Assembly: GCF_014058705.1 (NCBI RefSeq)
Contig: NZ_CP059692.1
Span: forward strand, 1,865,001 to 1,929,000
Direction: 5' to 3'
Source: Aureimonas mangrovi
GTDB lineage: Bacteria > Pseudomonadota > Alphaproteobacteria > Rhizobiales > Rhizobiaceae
Length of the DNA: 64,000 nt
Of this stretch, positions 23,729 through 41,280 are shown piece after piece. A program made the position numbers and the translations under genes. The first letter of the stretch is position 1; every line of letters begins with the position of its first letter. Below the pieces are notes generated by a model. That model did no database searches, had not been told where the DNA came from, and saw nothing but the letters and a program-made list of their open reading frames with translations.

Positions 23729-24745
23729 TGTGTAGGGCGGTGACAAAGCAGGCCATTAGAGCGCCGTCATGATGGCGAGCACGTCGGAGTAAAATCCGGC
23801 CAGTGGTTAGGCTGTTTTCCTTTGGGGGCGGCCGGGATGTTTGCCGTGGAAGTCTACGCCGCCGTTCGGCATTTCGTGATGATCGAGAAGAACAGCCAGC
23901 GCGATGCGGCGCGTGTGTTCGGGTTGAGCCGAGAGACGATCTCGAAGATGTGCCGGTTCTCGGCTCCACCGGGCTACACGCGGGTGAAGCCGGTGGCCAA
24001 GCCGAAGCTGGGGGGGCGCTTCTGCCAGTGATCGAGGCGATCCTGGAGGCGGACGGGTCGGCGCCGGTCAAGCAGCGTCACACGGCCAAGCGGATCTTCG
24101 AGCGGTTGCGCGACGAGCACGGCTATGCCGGCGGCCTGACGGTGGTGAAGGATCACGTGCGGATTGCCCGGGGGCGTCTGCGCGAGACCTTCGTTCCGCT
24201 GGCGCATCCGCCGGGGCATGCCCAGGTGGACTTCGGCGAGGCCATGGGCGTGATCGGCGGGGTCCGGCAGAAGATCCACTTCTTCTGCATGGACGTGCCG
24301 CAGTCGGACGCGCCGTTCGTGAAGGCCTATCCGAAGGAGACGACGGAGGCCTTTCTCGACGGGCACGTGTCGGCCTTTGCCTTCTTCGGCGGCGTGCCGC
24401 TGTCGATCCTCTACGACAACACGAAGATCGCGGCGGAGAAGATCTGCGGCGATGGCAAGCGGGAACGCACGAGGGCCTTTACCGAACTCCAGAGCCATTA
24501 CCTGTTCCGGGATCGCTTCGGACGCCCCGGCAAGGGGAACGACAAGGGCAAGGTCGAGGGGCTGGTGAAGTATGCCCGGTCGAACTTCATGACGCCGATC
24601 CCGCAGGCGGCCAGCTTCGCAGATCTGAACGCCATGCTGGAGGATCGCTGCCGACAACGGCAGGGCGAGATCGCCGGACGCCACGGCGAGACGATCGCAG
24701 AGCGCCTCGTCGCCGATCCTGCCGCCTTCCGGGAGGGTATCCAGT
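23729..24745 (+). mobile_element. IS21-family remnant with broken istA
   Basis: The left end TGTGTAGGGCGG resembles IS21 termini. The istA reading starts at 23838 (MFAVEVYAAVRHF, HTH with RDAARVFGLSRETIS), shifts frame at a G-run near 24011 and continues with APKQRHTAKRIFERL-type sequence, QVDFGEAMGVIGG, LYDNTKIA and GRPGKGNDKGKVEG. The C-terminus and the whole istB gene are missing; homology fades near 24745. Confidence 0.8.
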
Positions 24746-24767
24746 TTCGACAGCGGTTCACTGACGA

Positions 24768-25466
24768 TCAGAATAGAGATCCTTGAACCTCACCCTGCTG
24801 ACGAGCATTGCTGACTGGTCGCCGGTCGATCAGCTGCAGGAACGCATCGCGGGATAGCGTTTCGGAGCCAAGCAAGCCTCGTCGACGAAGGGAGACGTAG
24901 AGTGCCGCGGAATAGGCCTGGCAGTTGATCGACTTCTCCGGGTTGAACTCGATGTCCGTGAACGCATCAAACGCCATTAGCTCGTCCCCCAACTGTCGGC
25001 TTTGCCCCATAGCCGAGACATAGAGCCAGTCGTAGAACGCAGTCTGGGGATCGATAGCCCAGTCGACACCCGCAAGTCTAAAGGCAGTTAAGCGACCCGA
25101 TGATCGCAGGCGCTCGTCGCGCTTCGCGTCTCTCGGACCAGCCGTATACAGGTCGGTGAATGGGCCACCTTTCTGAAAAACCTTGCTGCCCTGGAATGCG
25201 CATTCGACGATCATCGCCGGATGACTTCCTACGGCGACCGCGAGATTAAACGCGCTTGCGGCAACGCCGTAGGGAACGCTCGACTTACTTGAGATCTCAA
25301 GCGCATTCTCGACGCCGAGCTGCTCGCGAGCCGACGCGTGTAGCGAAGCAATCGACTTCTGCTTCTGGCTGATCGAGAGACCAGGATACCACTGGAAATC
25401 CGCAACTCTTGTCAGCACCAGCGAGGGCCCTGTGAAGCGGGGGATATACACGGGGCGCTGTGCCAT
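24768..25466 (-). CDS. NADAR-type antitoxin of DarT1 family
   Basis: 232 residues. The order of segments (DFQWYPGLSISQKQKSI, ECAFQGSKVFQKGGPFTDLY, AFYDWLY, FTDIEFNPEKSINCQAYSAA) matches what I recall of DarT1-associated NADAR antitoxins, enzymes that remove ADP-ribose from modified DNA. It begins nine bases after the DarT-like gene ends, so toxin precedes antitoxin in one operon. The NADAR assignment is from family memory; a search would confirm it quickly. Confidence 0.75.
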   Translation of the reverse strand: MAQRPVYIPRFTGPSLVLTRVADFQWYPGLSISQKQKSIASLHASAREQLGVENALEISSKSSVPYGVAASAFNLAVAVGSHPAMIVECAFQGSKVFQKGGPFTDLYTAGPRDAKRDERLRSSGRLTAFRLAGVDWAIDPQTAFYDWLYVSAMGQSRQLGDELMAFDAFTDIEFNPEKSINCQAYSAALYVSLRRRGLLGSETLSRDAFLQLIDRRPVSNARQQGEVQGSLF

Positions 25467-25475
25467 TCGCTGCTC

Positions 25476-26585
25476 TCAGCTTTTTGCTTCACGCACGTAC
25501 GACCGGGCAGCGAAGACGCCTTTCCTCGGGTGGCCTATCTCCGTCTTCTCATCTTCGACATAGCCAGCCATGAAGTAGCCGTTGGTGTCAGGGAACACGA
25601 CCTTATTTATATACTCCGGGGATATCGGCTCGAGGAACATGACCTCCGCCTGCGGGTCGGTTGGATCGCAGCTATGAAGATTCTGCTCATCGCGAGATGG
25701 AAGGCCCTCAATGGAGGAGAACATGGCCTCGAACGCGGTCAGCGACTGGAGGTCGTCGATATTCAGGAGCCTCATTCGATGGTCTGCAGCATTTCGGGGG
25801 AAGAAGGCACAGCTCTTGGTCCAGAGTAAGGAGGGCGAAAGAAGCAACACGACCCACTCACTGCCCTTCTGAGCCTCACGGTATTTGTAGAACATTCGAT
25901 GGTTTGGATGTGAGATAGAGACCGAAATTCCGTCTCGTCCGTCGATGCGTTGCAGATCGTTCCTGATCGCTTGGATCGACCAATTCTCGATTTGGCTTAC
26001 CGGTAGCAGCCCGTGCTCCATTATCGATCGCAGATTCTCGAAGCGGGTAAAATGCACAAGTTGCTCGATTTCTCGGGCATACGACACGAACATGATCCCG
26101 GACTTCGACCCAAGTTGGCTCGCCTTCGGGAGCCAATCATCGTATAGATTTGATTTGGCCGACGACTTAAGTACTGTGGATTGGCTTGCAGTTTTAATTC
26201 TAATTCCACCTGTCTCGAATACAACAGACTCGACAGGTGGCTCTTTCTTTGGGTCGAGGCCCTGCCTTTCAGCTAAAGGCGTGGCAAGCGATCGTATTTC
26301 AGAATGCTCTGAGCTACTGCGCTTTAATTTGTTGCTCGACGTTTTGCGTGCTTCCGATCCAGACTTCTCGGGAGGTGCGAGCGCCGAATATGTGCCCCAG
26401 ATGACTACCAACTGCAGGATGACGAGCGGAGGCCAGAAGAGGTTGAAGACCGTGAACCCTGTCCAGACAACGGCAACGAGAGCGAGGTGCGTGGGAGCAG
26501 CAAGACGCGTAACGACTAGGCTGATCGCGATGAATGCCTGGTACGCGAGAATCTCCACGACACTCTCCCTGATTGAAAATCGCAT
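25476..26585 (-). CDS. darT: DarT-like DNA ADP-ribosyltransferase with N-terminal membrane segment
   Basis: 369 residues. Residues 170-330 show DarT-type ART features: LVHFTRFENLRSIMEHGLL, SVSISHPNHRMFYKYR and QAEVMFLEPISPEYI, whose glutamate would be catalytic. DarT enzymes attach ADP-ribose to bases in single-stranded DNA, blocking phage or host replication. Unusually, residues 8-70 form two or three transmembrane helices followed by a 100-residue low-complexity linker, so the toxin would sit on the inner membrane. Partner antitoxin lies immediately downstream. Confidence 0.75.
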   Translation of the reverse strand: MRFSIRESVVEILAYQAFIAISLVVTRLAAPTHLALVAVVWTGFTVFNLFWPPLVILQLVVIWGTYSALAPPEKSGSEARKTSSNKLKRSSSEHSEIRSLATPLAERQGLDPKKEPPVESVVFETGGIRIKTASQSTVLKSSAKSNLYDDWLPKASQLGSKSGIMFVSYAREIEQLVHFTRFENLRSIMEHGLLPVSQIENWSIQAIRNDLQRIDGRDGISVSISHPNHRMFYKYREAQKGSEWVVLLLSPSLLWTKSCAFFPRNAADHRMRLLNIDDLQSLTAFEAMFSSIEGLPSRDEQNLHSCDPTDPQAEVMFLEPISPEYINKVVFPDTNGYFMAGYVEDEKTEIGHPRKGVFAARSYVREAKS

Positions 26586-29453: not shown

Positions 29454-30218
29454 TTACACCTCGACGACAAGCGCCGGATCGAAGCTGCGGTTCTCGACGT
29501 CGTTTCGAGAATAGTAGCCCCGCGGATTGCAGATCACCCGCGTCTCACCGATCACGTAGTCGCTCGGATCGTGCATGTGGCCGTGGATCCAGAGGGACGG
29601 CTGGCGCTCCTCGATCATCCAGTCCAGCTCGCTCGCGAACGCCGGCGTTAGGGGATCGCCCTTGAATCGGTCGTGTACGCTTCGATCCGACGGCGCGTGA
29701 TGTGTCACGACCACACTCGGCCCGTCGAATGGATTCGAGAGCGCGATGTCGATAAACTGAAGGCTCTCGATGTGGCGGTTTCGGAGCTCCTCCGGGGTCA
29801 ATGCTTGGCCGTCGAAACCGATGATTGTCCGGTGATCGAGCATGCCGAGACGGGCGCTCTTCATTCTCGTCTCGGGCCAGTCGTAGAGCGAATAGTCCGT
29901 CCACAAGGTCGCGCCGACGAAGCGGACGCCGCCGACCACGACGCAGGCGTTCTCGAGGAAGTGGACGTGCGGACTAATCCGCATGTCCTGAGCTTCACCG
30001 AGCGAGCTGTCGATCTGGCGTCCGTAAAATTCGTGATTCCCGGCGACCAGGATCGTCGGCTTCCCGAACTGAGCCGCCCACGCGACCGAGCGACTGGGCG
30101 GCGACCAGATATCGCCGGCCAGGACCGCGATGTCTGCGTCGTCCGGCATGACGAATTCCGGGCGCCGGGGCTCGTGACGGTTTTCCAGATGGAGGTCGCT
30201 GAGGATCCATAATTTCAT
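29454..30218 (-). CDS. Metallophosphoesterase 1, copy 2
   Basis: 254 residues: ILSDLHLENRH, LAGDIWSPP, VAGNHEFYG, VVTHHAPSDRSV and IHGHMHDPSDYV give the complete metal site. It shares GETRVICNPRGYYSRN with copy 1 (GDTRVICNPRGYVSW) but stops at VVEV, lacking the 85-residue tail found in copy 1. The start overlaps the end of the fused gene upstream by four bases. Confidence 0.85.
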   Translation of the reverse strand: MKLWILSDLHLENRHEPRRPEFVMPDDADIAVLAGDIWSPPSRSVAWAAQFGKPTILVAGNHEFYGRQIDSSLGEAQDMRISPHVHFLENACVVVGGVRFVGATLWTDYSLYDWPETRMKSARLGMLDHRTIIGFDGQALTPEELRNRHIESLQFIDIALSNPFDGPSVVVTHHAPSDRSVHDRFKGDPLTPAFASELDWMIEERQPSLWIHGHMHDPSDYVIGETRVICNPRGYYSRNDVENRSFDPALVVEV

Positions 30219-30888
30219 CGATCAGGCTCTTCGCCGTCGAGATCGTCCGGCGACCGAGCGGCAAGGATCATCCGCATCTCTTCGTCCGTCAGATCGCCGA
30301 CCATCCGAGATACGCGACCGTTCGCTCGGATCTGCTCGGCCAGCTGTCGCTCACGCTCCGCATCCTCGCGTTCGAGCTCGTCGAGTGCTTCGTCGAGGCG
30401 ACCGATCGGGATGCCATTCTGCGTCAGATAGCCTTCCTCGACCTCGAACCCGGCAGGGATCGGACGCAGACGGCGAACGACCTCGACAACAAGCTCTGGA
30501 TCGAACGCCGCGACTTCGATCTCGGGCGAACGAGAGTTCATGTGATAGCCCACGTAACCTCGCGGATTGCACAGGATGCGCGTCTCAACGGCTTTCACGA
30601 ACCGGAGAACCGCAACGACCGAATCGAATACGAAACGCGCTTCCGCCTGCCGCAGAAGCGCGTTGTCGTGTGCGAGCGTCCAGTTGTTTCGGACGTCGTT
30701 GAACCGGTCGAACAGGGCGATCGAGTTCCGGACTATCTGCCGCGCCATCTCATGCGTCGGCATCTCCTCATCGAGAGCCCTCCGGTACTTGCCGACGCGG
30801 CTATGAAGTGGCTCGTCGCGGGTCCAGTCGATGCCACGCTGGTCGAGCAGATGCCCGAACTTCTTCATGCAGTATGTGTGCAGATGGC
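30215..30888 (-). pseudogene. Abi_C-like domain fused to phosphoesterase tail (3' part, split by IS5)
   Basis: Residues of the Abi_C type (PLHSRVGKYRRALDEE, FNDVRNNWTLAHDNALL, VLRFVKAVE) run straight into ETRILCNPRGYVGY and IPAGFEVEEGYLTQNG, which are phosphoesterase C-terminal sequences as in 9295-10335. So this gene is a natural chimera of an abortive-infection-type protein and the tail of a third phosphoesterase. Its 5' part is at 31741-32190 across an IS5-family insertion. A truncated product from ATG 30868 is possible. Confidence 0.7.
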
Positions 30889-30892
30889 CTAG

Positions 30893-31736
30893 GTAGGGGA
30901 CTCACTCAACCCATTGAGTTACAGCGGCGACGAGGGCGATGGCGGCGAGGTAGGTCTCGGAAAGACGGTCGTAGCGCGTAGCGATACGCCTCCAGTTCTT
31001 GAGCCTACCGAACATTCGCTCGATGACGTTGCGTCGGCGGTAGGCCAACCGATCGAGCGGATAGACGACGGCTCGGCTGCCTCGACCGGGGATGACGGGC
31101 TTGGTGCCGCGCCGCTGAAGTCGATCCCGGAAGTGGTCGGCATCATAGGCCTTATCGGCGACAACCCGTTTGGGCGGCGGGACAGCCTCGATCAGCGGCG
31201 CGGCCATGGTGATGTCGGCGATGTTGCCGGGCGTCAGGGCGAGGGCTCGGATCCGGCCGCGATCATCGGCCAGGCAATGGATCTTGGTGGTGCGCCCGCC
31301 CCGCGAGACACCGATAGCCTGCGTCCACTCCCCCCTTTTCCGCCGCTGGCGGCGCGGTGCGCCTTGACGATCGAGCTGTCGAGCAGGAGTTCATTTGGCA
31401 CCGTTCCGGCCGCCGCCATCCGGGCGAAGATGCGCTGCCAGATGCCACGCCCGGCCCAGCGTCGATAGCGGTTGTAGACGGTCTTGGCGGGACCGTATTC
31501 GGCCGGAACGTCGCGCCAGCGCCCGCCGGTCTTCAACATATGCAAGATGCCGGAGATCACCCGCCGATCATCGACCCGCGGCTTGCCCGGCTGGTTCTTC
31601 GGCAGGTGCGGCTCAAGCGCGTTCCAAGCCTTCTCCGATAGCCAGAACAGATCGCTCATCGCTTCCCTCCAAACCTTCAAACTCAAAGGCGGACGGAATC
31701 AGCCAAACTTGGCAATATCTTAGATGGGTCCCCTAC
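30893..31736 (-). mobile_element. IS5-family (IS427-like) insertion sequence, 844 bp
   Basis: Terminal repeats GTAGGGGAC(T/C)C at 30893 and inverted at 31736, flanked by a perfect 4-bp target duplication CTAG (30889-30892, 31737-31740). Contains a two-frame transposase. It splits an Abi_C-type gene; removing the IS plus one CTAG restores the reading frame exactly, so the insertion is recent. Confidence 0.95.
30902..31659 (-). CDS. IS5/IS427-type transposase, two overlapping frames
   Basis: The first frame starts at ATG 31659 (MSDLFWLSEKAWNALEPHLP, DUF4096-like) and carries VDDRRVISGILHMLKTGGRW and DSSIVKAHRAA. The catalytic rest (VADKAYDADHFRDRL, RNVIERMFGRLKNWRRIATR) lies in the other frame to 30902. 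An A/G-rich slippery run near 31335-31345 allows the programmed frameshift usual for this group. Probably active. Confidence 0.9.
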
Positions 31737-31740
31737 CTAG

Positions 31741-32190
31741 GGCGACGGCAGGCTTGTCTGCCTGGATGTCGCGCTGGATCGCCCCGACGAGCTCATCCAG
31801 CGTCTCGTTGGGCTGAAAGCGGTCGATACCTTCCGTCGAGGCGATCGGCGCGGTCGTCTCGATGCGGACCAGGAGATCGAAGAGCTTCCTTCGCGTCTCC
31901 GCCGTCGCCGATGCGTCCTCATACGGAGACTGCCGCATGCCCTCTCGATATTCCCACATCCTACGGACGACGCGCACGACCGTCGCCGCATCCTCGACCT
32001 CGATGAAGGCGCGCATGTGCTTCGCCTTGGAGGAGCCGTTGAAAGCGTAGGACTCCTGGAAGATCTGGATACTGAACTCGTCCTCGAAGAATTCTGCCAT
32101 CGTCCGATCGCTGAAGTCGAGCACGTAGCCCAACCCCATCTGCAGGGCGTCGTCGATGATACGCTTCTCCCAGTGCTTCAGCTGGACCAT
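31741..32190 (-). pseudogene. Abortive-infection-family protein, 5' part (split by IS5)
   Basis: About 149 codons from ATG 32190: a helical N-terminal domain (MVQLKHWEKRIIDDALQMGL, FEDEFSIQIFQESYAF) ending TLDELVGAIQRDIQADKPAV, the linker typical before Abi_C domains. The reading resumes beyond the insertion with GHLHTYCMKKFGHLL. The start follows the stop of the 307-aa gene without a gap. As read here it would be truncated with six IS-derived residues. Confidence 0.75.
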
Positions 32191-33114
32191 CTACTCGTTG
32201 TCGAACATGTCCGGTGCCGATCCCTCGGCGGCACGGATCACTCCATAGACTTTCAGGATCTCGACCTTCTCCTCCGTCACCTCGCCCTTTTGGTCGTACC
32301 GATAGGTGTACCGGGCGCGGACCCGCAGCGCGTCGCCAGGCAGGACGAGCACCTCGTGCTTGCGGAATTTCTCCAGCCACTCGAGGTCGCGGATCGACGC
32401 CGAGATCGGATGCTTCCGATGGCGGAAACCCCATTGAGCGTCGCCGAGGAGGTCCGGCTTCCTCACGACAAAGACGATGTCGAGGTCGTTCGACAGTTCC
32501 TCCGTCCGCTCCGGCGGCAGATGCTCGGACGGAAGCCAGCGCTTTGAGACGTCGACCCGATACTCATCCTCGCCGAGGACGATCGTCAGGCCCTCCCCCG
32601 GACGGAAGCGTTCCTTCGTCCGCTGCACTTGGTCTAGCGACTGCGCAAGCCGGGACGGCAGGATCGGCGGGTAGTCCGGAAGATGCCGGACGTCCGTCTC
32701 CTCCGCAAGCTTCCTGATCTGCTTCGCAAGATCCTCGACGCCGGCGTCCTCGCCGTCCTCGATCGGACGGTCTAGCCATTCGAGCGCGAGGTATTTCGCG
32801 CTCACAAGGTAGATCCCGAGCTGCTTCTTCCAGTCGAGCGTCTTCAGCGCCTCGTCGTCGAGTGACTTCAAGAAGTTTCTCAGAAAAACCCGTAGGCTGC
32901 TCTTCCGGACGTCTTCCAGGATCAGCGACGTCTCGATCCGGCTGTCGACCGACGACAGGAGTACGCGGTCGAGCCCCTCGAACGCGGCGATCAACTCGGA
33001 GGCGATCGTGAAGACCCGGGCTGCCGACCCATCCTCGACGAAGTCGATCTTGATCTCTAGGTCGCGATCGGGCTCGGGTGGCTCCTCAAGGACGGTGACG
33101 ACTATCTCAGACAT
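32191..33114 (-). CDS. Hypothetical protein, 307 aa, defence operon
   Basis: A soluble acidic protein beginning MSEIVVTVLEEPPEPDRDLE, with a region LRVFLRNFLKSLDDEALKTL and several beta-strand segments. I do not recognise its family. It lies between the methyltransferase-nuclease gene (6-base gap) and the Abi_C-type gene (0-base gap), so the three are an operon and should act together. It may be a specificity, sensor or coupling subunit. Confidence 0.7.
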   Translation of the reverse strand: MSEIVVTVLEEPPEPDRDLEIKIDFVEDGSAARVFTIASELIAAFEGLDRVLLSSVDSRIETSLILEDVRKSSLRVFLRNFLKSLDDEALKTLDWKKQLGIYLVSAKYLALEWLDRPIEDGEDAGVEDLAKQIRKLAEETDVRHLPDYPPILPSRLAQSLDQVQRTKERFRPGEGLTIVLGEDEYRVDVSKRWLPSEHLPPERTEELSNDLDIVFVVRKPDLLGDAQWGFRHRKHPISASIRDLEWLEKFRKHEVLVLPGDALRVRARYTYRYDQKGEVTEEKVEILKVYGVIRAAEGSAPDMFDNE

Positions 33115-33120
33115 GAATCG

Positions 33121-34833
33121 TCATAGGAGCAGACCCTGCCGATCCATCGACCGGTCCTCGTTCGCCGCTTTCCTGAACGCGGACGTATCCAGCCAGGGAA
33201 GGTGCGGCTTCTTGCCTTCGAAAAGGTCCTCGATGGTCAGGATCTGGAGCTTCTGAAATTTGCCGTACGGAGTCTCGTAAAAACCAGCCTTGATGGCCTC
33301 GGTCACCATCGGCTTCGTCGGCGGAGTGATCGAGAGCAAGATTCCTACCTTGGCTTTCTCCCGATCGACGACATGCCCAAGTTCTCGGATCATCGCGACG
33401 CTTATGTTCGCTCCGCCCTTTACTGACACGATCGCCTTCTCGGTCTTCCTGCCGTCCGGCTTGAAGTAGATGATGCCGTCGATGCCGCTGTCCGCGCCCT
33501 TCTTCCTCCCTCCCCATGGTACGGCGCTGACGAGGGAAACGGCCCACCACTGGAACTGGTATTTGTCGACCGCTGCCAGCTCTTGCGCGCCCGCGAGGTC
33601 CTTAGGGGTTCCATGAACCTCATACCGGATGCCGGGGAAGGCGTCGGAAAGTCGCTTCTCGATGAGTGAGATGGCAAGGTGGGTGATGTCGATCCCGATC
33701 CAGCGCCTCTCGAGTTTCTGCGCGGCATGTACGGCCGTGCCGCATCCGCAGAACGGGTCTAGGACGACATCGCCAGGCTTCGATGAAGCCATCAATATCC
33801 GCTCGAGCAAACCCAAGGGCTTCTGTGTCGGGTAGCCTAGGCGCTCGCCTTCCTTCGAACCCATCCAGCGGACGTCATCGTCGATGCCCTTGTCCGTACC
33901 GTAGGCGGTGCCCTCGGTGTACGGTTGGTAGGCCCAGATGTCGGACAGGTACTGCCCGTCCTCCTCCGTGATGTATCTCTGATACCTTGGCCACTCGTCG
34001 CCCTCGGCGATCGTAATGATCCCCATCTCTAGGAGTTTGTCGAACTTCTCATGCTGGTTCAGGCCTTCGAACTGATCTTCGATTCCGTCGAGGAGCTTCG
34101 ATGGCAGCGCCCAATGTCGCCCCTTCGCAGTCGGATCGAACCCATTCCAAGGCTTCCCGGAGATACCGTTGCGGGTCTCCGAACCCGTGAGGATGTTCCC
34201 CGAGTAATTTGTCCGGTACCGACCGTTTTCCTCGACGAAAGCCTTCTCGACATGTCCCTTCATGTACGGCCGCGTATTGCGATAAAAGCGCGTAGCCTTA
34301 GTTTTTGTATAGAACAGTATGACGTCGTGGATCGGGCCGAATCGCTTTGTGGAATTGTGAGAGCCAGTGCGACGCCATATGATCTCGTTGCGGAACATCC
34401 GCGGACCGAAGGCCGCATCCAGCAGGATCTTGAGGTAGTGGCTGGCGGTTGGGTCGCAGTGCAGGTAGAGCGACCCGGTATTCTTCAGTACCCGGTGCAG
34501 CTCGAGCATCCGGACGGCCATCATCGTGAGATAGGCCATCATATCGTTCTCGCCGAGGAAGGATCGCATCGCTCGCAACATCTCGGCAACAGCCGAATTG
34601 CCAGACTGCATCACCTCGTCGAAGGCGAGTTCGGCTTCATCCGTCCAGTTCCAGGTGTCTTCGAACGCCTCGATCTGCGCCTGACTCTCCTGCCCTTCGG
34701 GACTCTTGAAAAGGACGTTGTAGTTCGCCGCGGAATTGAATGGGGGATCAAGGTAGATGAGATCGACGCTCTCATCAGCGATGCTCTCGCGCAGGACGAC
34801 GAGATTGTCGCCGTAGAATAGTTGATTCGTCAT
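33121..34833 (-). CDS. DNA adenine methyltransferase fused to Mrr-like nuclease
   Basis: About 570 residues from ATG 34833 (an earlier in-frame start lies at 34869). Motif IV LDPPFNSAANY precedes motif I DPFCGCGTAVHAA (about residue 360), the beta-class order for N6-adenine or N4-cytosine methylation. After residue 420 comes a restriction-endonuclease-like domain: GGRKKGADSGIDGI and AIVSVKGG, a D...xVK variant of the PD-(D/E)xK site as in Mrr-type enzymes. Such one-chain modification and cleavage enzymes act as Type IIG/III-like or methyl-sensing defence. Promoter-proximal gene of a three-gene operon. Confidence 0.8.
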   Translation of the reverse strand: MTNQLFYGDNLVVLRESIADESVDLIYLDPPFNSAANYNVLFKSPEGQESQAQIEAFEDTWNWTDEAELAFDEVMQSGNSAVAEMLRAMRSFLGENDMMAYLTMMAVRMLELHRVLKNTGSLYLHCDPTASHYLKILLDAAFGPRMFRNEIIWRRTGSHNSTKRFGPIHDVILFYTKTKATRFYRNTRPYMKGHVEKAFVEENGRYRTNYSGNILTGSETRNGISGKPWNGFDPTAKGRHWALPSKLLDGIEDQFEGLNQHEKFDKLLEMGIITIAEGDEWPRYQRYITEEDGQYLSDIWAYQPYTEGTAYGTDKGIDDDVRWMGSKEGERLGYPTQKPLGLLERILMASSKPGDVVLDPFCGCGTAVHAAQKLERRWIGIDITHLAISLIEKRLSDAFPGIRYEVHGTPKDLAGAQELAAVDKYQFQWWAVSLVSAVPWGGRKKGADSGIDGIIYFKPDGRKTEKAIVSVKGGANISVAMIRELGHVVDREKAKVGILLSITPPTKPMVTEAIKAGFYETPYGKFQKLQILTIEDLFEGKKPHLPWLDTSAFRKAANEDRSMDRQGLLL

Positions 34834-34960
34834 GCTTCCCCCACCGTACTCGGCGAAGCTAGCATTCAACCTTCAGGGGTGTCACCCAACCTGGATCACC
34901 AAAAACGAGGCTCCTCCGCAGAGGCAGCCTACTAGCAGGGTGATTGGTGTAACGAAGCCA

Positions 34961-35329
34961 TCACACATCTCCGATCACCCTGCCCTGCGCCCGTCCGCCT
35001 TCCCAGAGCCGCACGTCAGAAATCTCACCCTCGACGACGAGGCGTCCGCGATCGTCTTTTGAGTGAGAGAGGCGGACGTCGCCGAACGCCCACTCGCGGA
35101 CAAGGCCCTCTCGCGGAAGGATCCGGACAACAGCTCGCTGCAGCGAAAGCGCTTCCCGGAACGCAGGCGACGGGGACGGGACGACGGCGCGCAGGCGCCC
35201 CTTCATGATGGCGACTTCAACTGCTCCGGTCCGCACCCGGCTTGTGGGAGACGAGCGGGCGGACAGTGCGATATCCGCGACGAGAGGAACGAGCTCGTCG
35301 GCGATGATGGGTCGGAGGCGGAGTGCCAT
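34961..35329 (-). CDS. Hypothetical protein, 122 aa
   Basis: Begins MALRLRPIIADELVPLVADI. Its ATG overlaps the exonuclease-like stop as TAATG, so the pair is translationally coupled. Rich in Arg and Val with several beta-strands; no recognised domain. Possibly an accessory factor for the exonuclease. Confidence 0.6.
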   Translation of the reverse strand: MALRLRPIIADELVPLVADIALSARSSPTSRVRTGAVEVAIMKGRLRAVVPSPSPAFREALSLQRAVVRILPREGLVREWAFGDVRLSHSKDDRGRLVVEGEISDVRLWEGGRAQGRVIGDV

Positions 35330-36180
35330 TACGCCGCTCTCCCTGTTGAAGTGACGCCGAGAAGAAAGCTCGGGATGACACGACCCTGTCCGTCCTTTGC
35401 GAGCCCCTTCTTCGCGACGACGGCCTGCATAACCTCATCTTCGGCTTCCTGGGTTGCGAGGACAATGCCCTCGCTCTCGTCGTCGGGTGCCTCCTCTCCG
35501 GTCAGGCGGCACCAGATGCGGCGACAGCACTCCACGTCGTCCGCGTTGTAGATCCGTACGTCTTCGTACCGTCCGGCCTCCCAAAGCGCGGCGACCTTGC
35601 TCCCGTCGATGTCGCCCTTGCCCTTCAGCCCGAGGATCCTCGCCAGGCGATCCTGACTGATGAACCCGCCCTTCGGCCCGCACCACATCAACATGGTGTC
35701 CTGGAGATCATCCGCTTTCCACGGCGCTGCATGGACCGGCCACCAGGACGGAGGCGCGATGCCGAGGACAATGGCCCTGCGCCAGAGGAACAGCACGTCA
35801 AACGAGCTGATGCAGTGGCCGACCAGCGTCGGGGACACCCGGCTGTCCGCCCGCAGCCGTTCGAGTTCGCCGAAGAAGCCTTCGATCAACGCACGCTCGA
35901 TTGCCTGATCGTAGCCGTTCTTCCCGGCACTGGTCGCGGCGACAACCGGTCCGTCTCCAATGGCCCAGGCTATGCTCGCGACCAGACCGTAGCCACCGTC
36001 GAGGGCCGTCTTCGCCACCGCCTCGGCGACGGCGCCGGGACGCTCCTCGTCGACCCACTTCTGAATCGTCTCGGGCTTCTTCATCGTCGCCGGCGGGCGA
36101 ACGGAAGCCGCGACCTCGGCGATGACGTCCGGTTCCGCCGTGGGGAGCGTCTCGATGTCGAAGAAGCAGATGTCGGCGGG
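35329..36180 (-). pseudogene. PolB-like 3'-5' exonuclease, 5' end fused into phosphoesterase remnant
   Basis: The exonuclease frame contains the DEDD motif I ICFFDIETLPT at about 36150, then VGHCISSFDVLFLWRRA, LGLKGKGDIDGSKV and IYNADDV, all typical of predicted PolB-family 3'-5' exonucleases. The first in-frame ATG (36084) is downstream of the DIET motif. The expected start codon is replaced by ATC because the DNA joins the phosphoesterase 2 remnant at a shared ATCACGACG-like sequence. Without an upstream start the product lacks its first catalytic Asp and Glu. Confidence 0.65.
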
Positions 36181-36191
36181 GATCGTCGTGA

Positions 36192-36436
36192 TTGCCGATG
36201 ACGAGGTGTTTGGTCCCGTTGAGACGCTTGAAGTAGCTCTCGGGCCCGGCTTTCGTGCGGTACGCGAAGTCGCCGAGATGGTAGACGGTATCCTCGGGGC
36301 GGACGACCGAGTTCCAGCACGCGATCAGGGCTGCGTCCATCTCGCCGACGTTCGCGTAGGGCCTGGCGCTCAGATTGATGACGCCTTCATGCCCGAAGTG
36401 CGTGTCCGCAACGAAAAATGTCCGCGCCTTGCTCAT
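36192..36436 (-). pseudogene. Metallophosphoesterase 2, copy 2, truncated
   Basis: From ATG 36436 the sequence matches the protein at 10400-10948 (FFVADTHFGHEGVINLSARP, HLGDFAYRTKAG, VIGNHD) but homology stops right after GNHD, where the DNA continues as the exonuclease gene in another frame. About 100 C-terminal residues with the remaining His ligands are lost. Confidence 0.75.
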
Positions 36437-36495
36437 GTCGGCCTCCGTCGCCGTCGTCTGTCCGGCAGGTGCAGGATCGCCCGACAGTATGAAAG

Positions 36496-36678
36496 TCACG
36501 ATCCTCCGGACTGAAGGATCTGCTGCTCGATACGGCGGTCCAACTCGGCGTCGATCGCCGTCACTGCCGCCGCGAGGACGGCTTCGATCTCCCACGCTGC
36601 GAAGCCGACGAGGTGGGTCCGCAGGCGCGGGCAGCGCTCCCGCAGGCGGACGAGGAAACGGTCGGTCTCGTCACTCAT
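36496..36678 (-). CDS. Small helical protein, copy 2 (intact)
   Basis: 60 residues: MSDETDRFLVRLRERCPRLR, then WEIEAVLAAAVTAID and LDRRIEQQILQSGGS. It overlaps the stop of the upstream gene by eight bases. The copy in the left module (12311-12445 plus 11008-11069) is split by an insertion sequence. Function unknown; conserved between modules. Confidence 0.65.
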   Translation of the reverse strand: MSDETDRFLVRLRERCPRLRTHLVGFAAWEIEAVLAAAVTAIDAELDRRIEQQILQSGGS

Positions 36679-37048
36679 GGTCCGCTCTCCACAGCAGCCG
36701 CCCATCGATTTCGTATACCCAGCCCGGACCGGCAGCCCGCGCCGTCGCGACGAGGAGCCGCTTCAGGTTCAGCGTGTCGACGTTGTCCGAGATGACGACC
36801 GGACACGGACCCGGGCACCCGGCGCGAACCCAGTCCCGAAGCTCGATCTCCCTTGCAGACGGCCAGGCGGCCCCGTCGTGGGCGTCGGCGATTTCGGCCG
36901 GAAGGCGGGCGAGCGCGACCCGCGGATTGGCGCCGTAGAACCGCTTCCAGGCCGCTTTGTCGGTCGGCTCGACTCCTAGATCGTGCTCGACGAGGGCAGC
37001 GTAATAAGCCCTCCGAGCGGCGAGCCAGCTTTCCAGTGTCTCGATCAA
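36671..37048 (-). CDS. Hypothetical protein, 125 aa
   Basis: Begins MIETLESWLAARRAYYAALV; mixed helical N-terminus and a C-terminal beta region with two Cys in GCPGPCPVV. First gene after the RHH operator pair in copy 2; absent from copy 1. No recognised family. Confidence 0.55.
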   Translation of the reverse strand: MIETLESWLAARRAYYAALVEHDLGVEPTDKAAWKRFYGANPRVALARLPAEIADAHDGAAWPSAREIELRDWVRAGCPGPCPVVISDNVDTLNLKRLLVATARAAGPGWVYEIDGRLLWRADHE

Positions 37049-37067
37049 TGGCCCGATCCATGTAGCG

Positions 37068-37108
37068 TATACGTACCTTTATCGCCCGTAATGGTGCATA
37101 TACGGACC
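37068..37108 (-). promoter_or_regulatory. TATACGGACC operator pair, copy 2
   Basis: TATACGTACC at 37068-37077 and TATACGGACC at 37099-37108, 31 bases apart, match copy 1 in sequence and spacing while the DNA between them has diverged. They lie directly upstream of the 125-aa gene and downstream of the RHH gene. Confidence 0.55.
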
Positions 37109-37109
37109 A

Positions 37110-37301
37110 TCACGTCCCCGCCGGCCTGATCTGCTTGAGCGCCATCGACATCGCCGCCAGTCCGATCGCCCGCCGTCCGTCGCGGTCGAGCATCGTCCAG
37201 AGCTCCACGGCTTGGTGGACGAGTTCGGTCTGAGGGATGCCCTCCGCCGCCTCGATTTCGACGAGGCGACGGCGGACGTCCGGCTTGAAGGTGAGGATCA
37301 C
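37110..37301 (-). CDS. Ribbon-helix-helix-like small protein, copy 2
   Basis: 63 residues from GTG 37301 (MILTFKPDVRRRLVEIEAAE), overlapping the FtsH-like stop as GTGA. Same fold pattern as 12519-12695, with the LVHQAVELWTMLDRDGRRAI segment conserved. Likely binds the operator pair just downstream. Confidence 0.65.
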   Translation of the reverse strand: MILTFKPDVRRRLVEIEAAEGIPQTELVHQAVELWTMLDRDGRRAIGLAAMSMALKQIRPAGT

Positions 37302-39352
37302 GACCGCACCTCGAAGCCCTGCTCTGCGGCGAAATCGAGGAGCGCACGCTTCCCTAGGACGCGCTTCTGCGCCGCGATCTGAGCGAGCGCTTCGACCGCA
37401 CTCCGGTGCTCTCCGATCAGTCGGAGGGTACGACCGTACAGATCCCGAAGCCGGCTCTCGACCTCCTGCGTCGACACGTGCTCGTCAGACGTCAGCCGTC
37501 CACCAAGGCCGACGTGCCCGACGATCTGGCCGACGAGACGCGTCACTTCTTGAAGATCGCCGATCGCTCCCGCGGAAGGCTCGCCGAGAAGCACATCTTC
37601 TGCCGCCCGGCCCGCGAGCAAGATCATGACTTTCCGTTCGAGATCGCCAAGCCGACCGCAGCCGCCGATATTGATCCCGCGCACGGAGCCGCCCAACCCC
37701 TCGTGTGAGACAATTGACAAAGAATCGATCGACACGCCCGATGCGAACGCGGCCACGGCATGCCCCGCCTCATGGACGCAGACCAGCCGCACCGTCTCCG
37801 CCGACCTCGTCTCCTCCGGGATCGCGATCGACAGGAGATCGTCCGCCACGATCTCACGCCCTGCCCGCCGAGCCGCCCGGCGCGCCTCTCTGGCGATCCG
37901 GCTCACGTCGGCGCCAGACGTCGTCCCCGCGAGGACCGTCGCCGCCGTCTCGAACGCCTCCGCAGACCCACCCGGAAGATGGTGCGCGAAGATTCGAGCC
38001 AATGCGGCCTCGTCCGGCAAGCCGATCTCGAAACGACGGTCGAGGCGGCCTGAACGCAGAAGCGCGGGGTCGATCTTCGAGGGTTCGTTGCACGCGGCGA
38101 GCACGACGAGGCCTTCCCGACGCGTGGTACCGTCGAGGTGCTCCAGGAGCGACGTGATCACGGCGGACCACCAGCCGTCCGCGTCGCCACGCTGACCGCG
38201 GGTTCCGACCGTGTCGAGCTCGTCGATGAAGAGAATCGCCGGCGCCGCTGCGAGCGCGTCTTCGAAACGACGCCTGATTCCCTTGATGACGTAGCCTAAG
38301 TGGCCGTCGCCCTGAGACTGCCAGTCCGCATAGCTGGTCGCGATGAACGGCAGGCCGGACGACGCTGCCAGCGCCGACGCGAACAGGGTCTTCCCGGTTC
38401 CGGGAGGGCCTGAAAGCAGGCAGCCGGCATCGACATCCGACCACGGCAGCCTGCCATCGCGGTAGTCGTGAAGATCGCGGACGAGGTCAGCGCCCCACGC
38501 CGCGGCAGCACCGTAGCCGTGAAGATCCGTCAGCGTCGGCGACGTCGGACGCAGGATCGGCGTTGCGGCGTGACGGCGCCGACGATCCGTTTCCGATTCC
38601 GGCTGCTTCTCTGTCTCTACCTTCTTCTCACCGGACTTCCTCTCGCGCTCGTCGCGGTCCGCCTGAGCGAGCCGCCCGAGCATCTCGAACGCGTGCGATC
38701 CCGAAGCTGCACGCTGGCAGATGAGCTCGATCGCATTCGGGTGGACGTCGAGGACATCGATCTCGTCCGGCCAGGCGCCAGCGTCGGGGAACTGGCGTCG
38801 GATCGCAGCTGCAAGCATCTCGCCGGTCGGATGCAGATTCAGCTCGAGATCCGCGAGCGCAGGGATCACGTGATTTAGCGTCTCTTTAGGCAGCAGCGGG
38901 ACGATCACGTGCGCCTCTCGGAGCGAGCTCACGACGAGGTCGATCTCAAGGCCGGCGCCGCGGTAGTGTTTCTCCGCGAAGGCCATCCCGTGTCCGATTT
39001 CGAGCCCCGCGTCGGCGCGGAGGTCACCGATCACGGCGCGCAGGGCCTCGCCTATGGGCTGGACCCACGCGGTCCGGGGAATGCGTGCGACGAGACACAT
39101 GCGATGCCCGGCAACCAAGCGATCGCGCAAGTCGGCGGGGATTGCGTCCCGAAGCAAAATGAAAGGCGCGTACGCCGACGGCGAGAGACCTTCGACGCGC
39201 TGATCCGCCAGCCTACGCGCGTTGGAGGCGTCGTCCACATCCTCGTCCTCGGGCTCGAGGTCGGTACGGAAATCAGGAACGTCGTCGCGAAGCGGGAGCC
39301 CCTTGCCGACGCTGCGAATAGAACGGAGTCCGGGTGTGTTGGCGGTCGCCAT
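37298..39352 (-). CDS. FtsH-like AAA+ ATPase with M41 zinc protease domain
   Basis: 684 residues from ATG 39352. An N-terminal 290-residue region without evident transmembrane helices replaces the usual FtsH membrane anchor. AAA+ core: LLSGPPGTGKTLFASAL (about 314), ILFIDELDTVGTRGQ (about 372) and an Arg-rich second region of homology with SGRLDRRFEI. The protease has HEAGH (about 525). So it is a soluble FtsH/AAA-M41 relative, plausible for degrading specific host or element proteins. A C-terminal stub of the other copy survives at 12692-12808. Confidence 0.85.
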   Translation of the reverse strand: MATANTPGLRSIRSVGKGLPLRDDVPDFRTDLEPEDEDVDDASNARRLADQRVEGLSPSAYAPFILLRDAIPADLRDRLVAGHRMCLVARIPRTAWVQPIGEALRAVIGDLRADAGLEIGHGMAFAEKHYRGAGLEIDLVVSSLREAHVIVPLLPKETLNHVIPALADLELNLHPTGEMLAAAIRRQFPDAGAWPDEIDVLDVHPNAIELICQRAASGSHAFEMLGRLAQADRDERERKSGEKKVETEKQPESETDRRRRHAATPILRPTSPTLTDLHGYGAAAAWGADLVRDLHDYRDGRLPWSDVDAGCLLSGPPGTGKTLFASALAASSGLPFIATSYADWQSQGDGHLGYVIKGIRRRFEDALAAAPAILFIDELDTVGTRGQRGDADGWWSAVITSLLEHLDGTTRREGLVVLAACNEPSKIDPALLRSGRLDRRFEIGLPDEAALARIFAHHLPGGSAEAFETAATVLAGTTSGADVSRIAREARRAARRAGREIVADDLLSIAIPEETRSAETVRLVCVHEAGHAVAAFASGVSIDSLSIVSHEGLGGSVRGINIGGCGRLGDLERKVMILLAGRAAEDVLLGEPSAGAIGDLQEVTRLVGQIVGHVGLGGRLTSDEHVSTQEVESRLRDLYGRTLRLIGEHRSAVEALAQIAAQKRVLGKRALLDFAAEQGFEVRS

Positions 39353-39440
39353 GCGATTGTCCTCCATCGACAGATCTGCCCGGCGGCCTCATCGCCATCG
39401 GGAATTCGCAACCTAAGCGAGGCGCGTCAGAAATCCATTA

Positions 39441-39871: not shown

Positions 39872-41092
39872 TCACGCCGCCTTCTTCAGAGCCGTCCTCG
39901 TGGCCAGTGCATCCGCCCACGTCCGCAGAATCGCGTGCTTCCTCTTCATGTCCGCGTGGAAATCGTAGTGCGCGAGAGTGACATCATCGCCCGCGCCTTC
40001 GGTATGGTCGAGAATAAGCTTCACGTCCGCCGTCGTGAACCCCTTTCCGCGGACCACAGAGGACAGGCCGCGCCGTAGATCGTGCGGAGAGAAACCTACG
40101 CCGAGATCACCCAGCGCGTGGGTCAGCGTGTATTCGGAGAGATGGCCGTCGCCGGCGATCGGAAATAGGAAGCCCTCCCCTACCCGGTCAACAATGGACC
40201 AGACCTCGCGAGGCAGCGGGATCGCGTGCTCGCGTCCGGCCTTCATCCGGGACGCGGGGATCGTCCAGACGAGGTACTGCCCCTTCCGGATGAAGTCCTC
40301 CCTTCGCGCCGTCGAGATCGTCAATCTCCGCTGAGCCGTGAACACGAGGAGCGTCACCGCGTCGGCGATCGTCGCAGACAACTCGTCCCGGCGGGCAAGC
40401 AACCCCTTCACCTGTGCCGGCGTCGGGATGCGAGGCGCTCGCCTTTCGACCGGCTTCCCTTCCGGTGGCTTCAGGCCGACGAGCATCCCTCTCGTCGCGC
40501 CCGTCTTCCGGATCCGATGATCCTGCGTCGCCCACGACCACATGGCGCTCAAAACATGACCGGTCTTCTCGGCGTTTCGAACCTTCCCGCTCTTCGCCAT
40601 CTCGGCGATCGTCTCCGCGAAGTCCTCACGCTGCAGACGGTCCATGTGCTTGGTCATCAGCATAGCCAGGGACGGCTGCATGAGCGTCTGGCGATAGTCC
40701 GAGTAGGTTTTCGGGCGCCTGTGCTCCTCGATCCAGGCGAGGTAGTCCGCTCGGACGTGGGCCAGCGTGGGTTTTATCGATGGCGCCGTCAGCTGATCGT
40801 CGATGCCGAGTTCGACCCGGCGCCGGGCGACCCACTCGACGTCCGGCGTCCCCGACCTCCGGATGAGATCGACCGCCTCCGCCGCGAGCATGCGGGCCTG
40901 ATCGGCGGTGAGGTCGCGATGCGTCCCGAAGTCTAAGAGCTTATCGCGTCCCTCGCGCTGCATCCGGAGCGACCAGAGACCCAGCCCTCCACGCGTCCTG
41001 AAGACGAGGCCTTTCTGGGTGTCCGCGATCCTATGGCGACCCGGCGTCCGCAGCGCCTTCTCAACGATGGCCTTCGTGATCCGCTCTGGCAA
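39872..41092 (-). CDS. int: Tyrosine recombinase (integrase)
   Basis: 406 residues. The N-terminal DUF4102-like arm-binding domain (HRIADTQKGLVFRTRGGLGL) is followed by the core-binding and catalytic domains: first Arg region TAQRRLTISTARREDF, box II SPHDLRRGLSS with H-x-x-R, and the nucleophile in LAHYDFH. It is of the P4/prophage type that integrates at tRNA 3' ends, and it lies 140 bases from the tRNA-Pro fragment. All catalytic residues present, so excision may still be possible if the left att site survives. Confidence 0.9.
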   Translation of the reverse strand: MPERITKAIVEKALRTPGRHRIADTQKGLVFRTRGGLGLWSLRMQREGRDKLLDFGTHRDLTADQARMLAAEAVDLIRRSGTPDVEWVARRRVELGIDDQLTAPSIKPTLAHVRADYLAWIEEHRRPKTYSDYRQTLMQPSLAMLMTKHMDRLQREDFAETIAEMAKSGKVRNAEKTGHVLSAMWSWATQDHRIRKTGATRGMLVGLKPPEGKPVERRAPRIPTPAQVKGLLARRDELSATIADAVTLLVFTAQRRLTISTARREDFIRKGQYLVWTIPASRMKAGREHAIPLPREVWSIVDRVGEGFLFPIAGDGHLSEYTLTHALGDLGVGFSPHDLRRGLSSVVRGKGFTTADVKLILDHTEGAGDDVTLAHYDFHADMKRKHAILRTWADALATRTALKKAA

Positions 41093-41230: not shown

Positions 41231-41280
41231 CCTGAATGGGGTTCAGGGGGTCGGAGGTTCGAATCCTCTCGCTCCGACCA
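41231..41280 (+). other. attachment site: 3' fragment of tRNA-Pro(GGG)
   Basis: Contains the anticodon arm (CCTGA, loop ATGGGGT with anticodon GGG at 41238-41240, TCAGG), the variable loop, the T-arm GGAGG-TTCGAAT-CCTCT, the acceptor 3' strand CGCTCCG, discriminator A and CCA. The D-arm and 5' acceptor strand are absent; upstream DNA (41200-41230) does not pair. This is the duplicated core left at the distal end of a tRNA-integrated element. Confidence 0.85.

Follow-up and report, generated by a model that had tools for sequence, protein, structure and literature searches.

Two adjacent genes at positions 24768-26585 of a 64,000-nucleotide stretch of the Aureimonas mangrovi genome (contig NZ_CP059692.1, forward-strand positions 1,865,001 to 1,929,000; hereafter the window) encode what, judged by protein family and catalytic residues, is a DarT1-NADAR (DarTG1) toxin-antitoxin system, whose toxin carries in front of its enzyme domain a predicted three-helix membrane module that we also found on two nucleases and a helicase. 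DarTG1 systems are known, and so is DNA defence at the membrane; what appears from sequence comparison to be new here is the predicted tether on a DarT1 and its sharing by three types of enzyme. The features are collected in Table 1.

Table 1. Features of the DarT1-NADAR pair and of the element around it, in window coordinates.
Feature	Position	Strand	Evidence or remark
DarT1-type toxin	25476..26585	-	369 aa from ATG; PF14487, 8baq, Foldseek
NADAR antitoxin	24768..25466	-	232 aa; PF22397, 8bat, conserved E88, K95, K115, D171
Predicted three-helix transmembrane module (residues 10-70)	26376..26558	-	alignment, AlphaFold2 helices, charge pattern
Flexible linker (about residues 71-165)	26091..26375	-	pLDDT
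DarT1 ADP-ribosyltransferase domain	25491..26090	-	residue matches to E. coli C7 DarT1, model
AGGGAG Shine-Dalgarno-like site (putative role)	26565..26570	-	6 nt upstream of GTG
Tyrosine integrase of element	39872..41092	-	PF13356, PF00589
50-bp direct repeat of tRNA-Pro(GGG) 3' part	41231..41280	+	apparent element end

The toxin matched the Pfam DarT family (PF14487) at 56.3 bits over residues 178-333 (cut-off, 22.5 bits), the only other Pfam match being a sub-threshold DUF7002, and its nearest solved structure by sequence was the E. coli C7 DarT1 (8baq; phmmer E 1.4e-36). Comparison of an AlphaFold2 model of the toxin (9 sequences; mean pLDDT 70.7) with 8baq by Foldseek gave an E-value of 4.4e-19, an rmsd of 2.1 and a TM-score by target length of 0.87. 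The neighbouring protein, whose gene lies 9 bp away, scored 279.4 bits against PF22397 ("DarT1-associated NADAR antitoxin"), and its nearest solved structure by sequence was the Geobacter lovleyi NADAR (8bat; E 1e-80). PADLOC called the toxin DarT at 25 bits, NCBIfam gave no useful match for either protein, and a genome search returned one DarT. In the available part of Schuller et al. (PMC11543638), residues H17, F18, T19, S26, R52, D54, M71, F72, N104 and E152 of the E. coli C7 enzyme are given as essential or NAD-contacting. All ten are kept in the window toxin, in which H178, F179, T180, R213, D215, M231, F232, N265 and E314 are equivalents of these catalytic or NAD-contacting positions, and M33, a backbone contact, is replaced by leucine (E. 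coli C7 numbering was carried over through L045, which comes from IMG/VR and is nearly identical to 8baq). The original prediction, of a DarT-type toxin with catalytic glutamate and arginine (here E314 and R213) next to a NADAR-type antitoxin, was thus borne out. Its ADP-ribosyltransferase fold, catalytic residues and adjacent NADAR, which keeps E88, K95, K115 and D171, make the pair resemble DarTG1 of E. coli C7 (PMC11543638); the E. coli C7 crystal is a 208-residue chain and L045 has no transmembrane segment, whereas the window toxin adds the predicted module and linker. DarTG2 (DarT2-DarG) shares the DarT fold but has a macrodomain DarG antitoxin where the window neighbour is a NADAR, and the window toxin residues match the guanine-specific DarT1. 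The true start of the toxin is probably the GTG at 26558, giving 360 aa, since it follows the AGGGAG site and aligns with the Roseovarius ATG, agreeing more closely with the start positions of related proteins than does the ATG at 26585. Around the pair, neither sigma-70-like promoters nor terminators rose above shuffled sequence.

The hydrophobic N-terminus and long disordered linker, both part of the original prediction, reappeared in the AlphaFold2 model, which placed helices at residues 5-29, 31-49 and 53-69 (pLDDT 63-93 over the block) and fell below a pLDDT of 50 over linker residues 73-145; the helical block also aligned with ten related N-termini. Linkers range from 95 to 319 residues in eight of the tethered DarT1s, a frame-broken one being left out, and were 27% identical in the single pair measured. 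Loop 1 (residues 27-34, with boundaries set to take in the invariant R27) is net positive in 11 of 11 module sequences, R27 being its sole charge in three of them, and loop 2 (residues 51-53) has no positive charge in any of the 11. The N-terminal tails are short and mostly uncharged, that of the window toxin having two arginines in the ATG-start version. Positively charged loops face the cytoplasmic side of a membrane (the positive-inside rule), and the loop charges therefore suggest an N-out/C-in orientation with the enzyme in the cytoplasm under the membrane; membrane insertion itself is suggested by the predicted helices and the charges. A simple hydropathy scan found two segments in 10 of the 11 modules and three in one, so the module may consist of two helices and not three.

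Twelve proteins were found to have the module: nine DarT1s, two REase_MTES_1575/DUF559 nucleases and one UvrD/Rep helicase. The DarT1s are those of the window, Tianweitania populi (same contig as G585), a Rhizobium leguminosarum plasmid, a Novosphingobium sp. MBES04 plasmid, Roseovarius gaetbuli, Sphingobium fuliginis and the genomes G1474, G1393 and G1314, and the nucleases are those of a Salipiger plasmid and of genome G1544. When the toxin was compared with plasmid records by tblastn, 26 records matched; the R. leguminosarum record alone covered both the N-terminus and the enzyme, and the Salipiger record matched at the N-terminus only, inside a DUF559 protein. Four members were found by the module alone: G1474, G1393 and G1314 (blind; E 4e-19 to 6e-16), which all turned out to be DarT1s, and G1544 (E 7e-21), which turned out to be a nuclease. 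Pfam had no match for the N-terminal 159 residues (best E 2.4). Taken as sequences, these proteins suggest a new family, which we propose here, defined by a shared three-helix anchor and a C-terminal DNA-acting enzyme. The module nucleases lie at L020 4986-5957 (+) and L077 6612-7343 (+), the latter being shorter at its C-terminus. The helicase fusion (phrog_1967; L032 5013-6905 (+)) lies on an IMG/VR contig whose opposite strand has, about 1 kb away, a tail-type gene and a weakly holin-like one (E 1.9e-4).

Within the module, seven positions (in window numbering Q16, R27, W41, L54, Q58, L59 and W63) do not vary in 11 of 11 aligned sequences, a signature that was derived from these same 11 sequences and so describes the set without being an independent test of it; L57 is present in 10 of 11. 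The G1544 module, the twelfth and outside this alignment, keeps all seven positions by eye. Against composition-preserving shuffles (300 per comparison), the nuclease and helicase modules scored above every shuffle in all 20 comparisons with the other modules (z 9 to 26), which cover 19 distinct pairs; together with the seven invariant positions, this indicates more than a chance hydrophobic stretch. The window module is 53% identical to that of the helicase and 57% identical to its best DarT1 match. In both window comparisons (n = 2) identity is higher over the anchor than over the enzyme (57% vs 45% and 50% vs 39%) and linkers are variable, which supports a role for the tether; against it, identity is lower over the anchor than over the enzyme in G1474/G1314 (48% vs 66%) and in G1474/R. 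leguminosarum (44% vs 61%). The two nuclease proteins are 70% identical over the module and 63% over the nuclease, and their modules differ at 23, 8 and 43 nucleotides in codon positions 1, 2 and 3, respectively; nucleotide differences in the window comparisons are also mostly at third positions. This bias points to selection on the module at the protein level. On a tree, the anchor labels required 3 changes (0 of 500 shuffles were as low) and a one-clade topology for the anchored DarT1s had an AU p of 0.194; the anchor may have arisen on DarT1 once or more than once.

A NADAR gene adjoins 8 of the 9 tethered DarT1s. On the Novosphingobium plasmid (L022 4900-6585 (+)), a break in the DarT1 reading frame separates the linker from the enzyme, and the NADAR is open over its full length. 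In G1393 (DarT1 at L060 5620-7044 (+)), no PF22397 NADAR was found within 13 kb around the toxin nor elsewhere in the genome assembly. Such a gap might be anticipated if toxicity is held in check by the tether itself, or it could reflect lower activity, because the G1393 enzyme has glutamate at the catalytic position D54, the other checked catalytic residues being intact. PF22397 likewise had no match in the plasmid record of the nuclease or on the helicase contig.

A search led by the antitoxin bore on the question whether homologues share the transmembrane extension, a check proposed with the original prediction. It returned 18 cellular loci (our own included) and 8 IMG/VR loci, with 16 recognisable DarT-like partners; 2 of the 16, those of the window and Tianweitania, have the module, and the remainder include module-free DarT1s and short divergent DarTs. 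Some relatives thus share the extension, and most NADAR-led partners lack it.

The pair is carried in an apparent 48.8-kb element integrated at a tRNA-Pro gene, a reading that rests on the 50-bp tRNA-Pro repeat at both ends and on the integrase that adjoins the window copy. The other copy is part of the intact tRNA gene (genome positions 1857391-1857440), 48.8 kb away and 7.6 kb before the window. Defence-like cargo at window positions 29454-39367 includes a PDC-S10 metallophosphatase (a candidate defence protein), an Abi_C protein, a PDC-S42 protein, a methyltransferase-Mrr fusion and an FtsH-type AAA-M41 peptidase with an IetA-like ATPase. Elsewhere, the neighbours of the R. leguminosarum pair include genes for a TIR protein, a recombinase and a methyltransferase, and those of the Sphingobium pair include RES-Xre and Fic genes. 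At window positions 23803-24786 (+), a transposase-like frame (rve, below cut-off) overlaps the 3' end of the NADAR gene by 19 bp, and the NADAR C-terminus still matches its relatives despite this overlap.

What the anchor does is a separate matter, and the reading that we favour, to which we give about equal credence for and against, is that it places a single-stranded-DNA guanine ADP-ribosyltransferase where DNA enters the cell and off the nucleoid, with the NADAR erasing self-inflicted damage. DarT1 is stated to act on guanine in single-stranded DNA in the available part of PMC11125620. Under the favoured reading, the tether would hold the enzyme in a sub-membrane layer, within reach of DNA in single-stranded form at its point of entry or close to it, whose guanines would be ADP-ribosylated: conjugative or transforming strands, single-stranded phage genomes and phage DNA starting replication. 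The nucleoid would be largely spared by the tethered enzyme, and the NADAR, presumably soluble, would strip adducts that land on host DNA. Most tailed phages inject double-stranded DNA, and a SNIPE-like attack on injected phage DNA would thus be chemically awkward for an enzyme that needs single strands; given this specificity, the targets just listed are to be expected above injected duplex. Also counted against the mechanism is that tethered DarT1s are a minority, as the 2 of 16 NADAR-led partners indicate, that DarTG systems have been reported to protect against phage in accounts whose available parts make no mention of an anchor, and that neither a sensor nor any additional required gene was found.

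The closest precedent is SNIPE, which is described in the available part of PMC13190303 as a membrane-anchored, cytoplasmic nuclease whose form without the transmembrane segment is highly toxic and whose anchored form cuts phage DNA during injection, telling phage from host DNA by location. By that account, SNIPE has an N-terminal membrane segment, a periplasmic N-terminus and a cytoplasmic DNA-damaging domain, an arrangement that in the window toxin is predicted only. It differs in having one transmembrane helix, a DUF4041 domain and a GIY-YIG nuclease, with no antitoxin mentioned there; Pfam found neither DUF4041 nor GIY-YIG in the window toxin. SNIPE is at most an analogue of the pair. Kiwa and Zorya, likewise membrane-located and acting on DNA at phage entry sites according to the available part of PMC12904381, differ as multi-protein systems, and PADLOC matched neither of them to the window toxin or antitoxin. 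By analogy, the SNIPE precedent and the recurrence of this anchor on nuclease and helicase proteins strengthen the suggestion, put forward in the original prediction, that the tether could be aimed at incoming DNA. A wider proposal, which we make tentatively and consider somewhat doubtful, is that a portable three-helix module turns unrelated DNA-acting enzymes into membrane-stationed weapons that separate foreign from own DNA by place, acting on DNA as it crosses the inner membrane. The enzymes so stationed may be a guanine ADP-ribosyltransferase, a restriction-type nuclease and a UvrD helicase, with single-stranded conjugative or transforming DNA as an especial target.

The same anchor could instead work as a safety catch, by which the toxin is stored inactive or away from DNA and freed on infection or stress, for example by proteolysis of the linker. 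The long, low-confidence and variable linker, the FtsH-type peptidase within the same element and the tethered DarT1 of G1393 in an assembly without a PF22397 antitoxin would all suit such a device; a helicase with the same anchor, however, would not obviously need storage, and we think this use of the anchor unlikely. We are also inclined to doubt, to a similar degree, that the anchor serves in sensing or docking, with the invariant Q16, R27, W41, Q58 and W63 binding a membrane partner or responding to membrane damage and so activating the enzyme, the candidate partners being secretion, conjugation or phage-entry machinery and the activation being as in Kiwa or Zorya. A simple hydrophobic anchor would not seem to call for as many as seven invariant positions in 11 of 11 modules, and Kiwa and Zorya, in the available part of PMC12904381, couple membrane sensing to DNA-acting effectors; yet no partner or oligomer was found, and helix packing alone could account for the conservation.

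Two further explanations seem to us highly improbable. Were the hydrophobic N-terminus an export or translocation segment that delivers the toxin to neighbouring cells, the NADAR would be an immunity protein, and the pair does have an effector-immunity layout, reminiscent of Vorin, an ADP-ribosyltransferase toxin with an immunity partner that is likely type VI-deployed according to the available part of PMC7764402. The loop charges nevertheless put the enzyme in the cytoplasm, the same segment is present on a UvrD helicase, and no secretion-system family was found among the 20 window proteins scanned. That the extension is incidental, through a mis-called start or a neutral fusion, and the pair a plain DarTG1 is scarcely to be expected when 12 proteins have the module, with protein-level constraint and with probable starts at similar places beside the first helix, even though extension-free DarT1-NADAR pairs are common among the loci found and one tethered toxin gene is frame-broken.

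If the tether is indeed an aiming device, location-based discrimination of self from non-self would be a modular strategy, and, since DarT1 acts on single-stranded DNA, a barrier to conjugation, natural transformation and phage is predicted. Reversible DNA ADP-ribosylation on a predicted tether would be a chemistry different from that of SNIPE, with an eraser added. In the available text of openly licensed PMC papers (PMC11543638, PMC11125620, PMC13190303, PMC12904381, PMC9503650, PMC13092281, PMC11833690, PMC7764402 and PMC9967889), no membrane-anchored DarT is described, and the same literature returned no paper for DUF559 with a transmembrane segment and defence.

The module also offers a sequence handle for finding more tethered effectors. 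Among genomes of the window's family it was found in 2 of 346, with further counts of 1 of 385 in its class (a chance match removed), 1 of 219 of the Sphingobium family, 4 of 218 of the Roseovarius family and 3 of 209 of the order of G1314, in samples that overlap and include the seeds, other orders being sampled only. A scan of genome contigs with one strict pattern returned 3 loci, all DarT1. A module match in G921 (E 3.9e-4) was rejected by eye as a polytopic membrane protein without the signature, and a Cupriavidus plasmid gave a weak module match (E 0.7). Neither the full toxin (E limit 1e-5) nor the module of the helicase (E limit 1) matched any phage record. IMG/VR gave no match to the full toxin, and scans of it with module alignments returned the helicase contig only, or nothing. 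On another IMG/VR contig (L047 2995-4566 (+)), a NADAR lies within a 523-residue frame and is perhaps part of a fusion.
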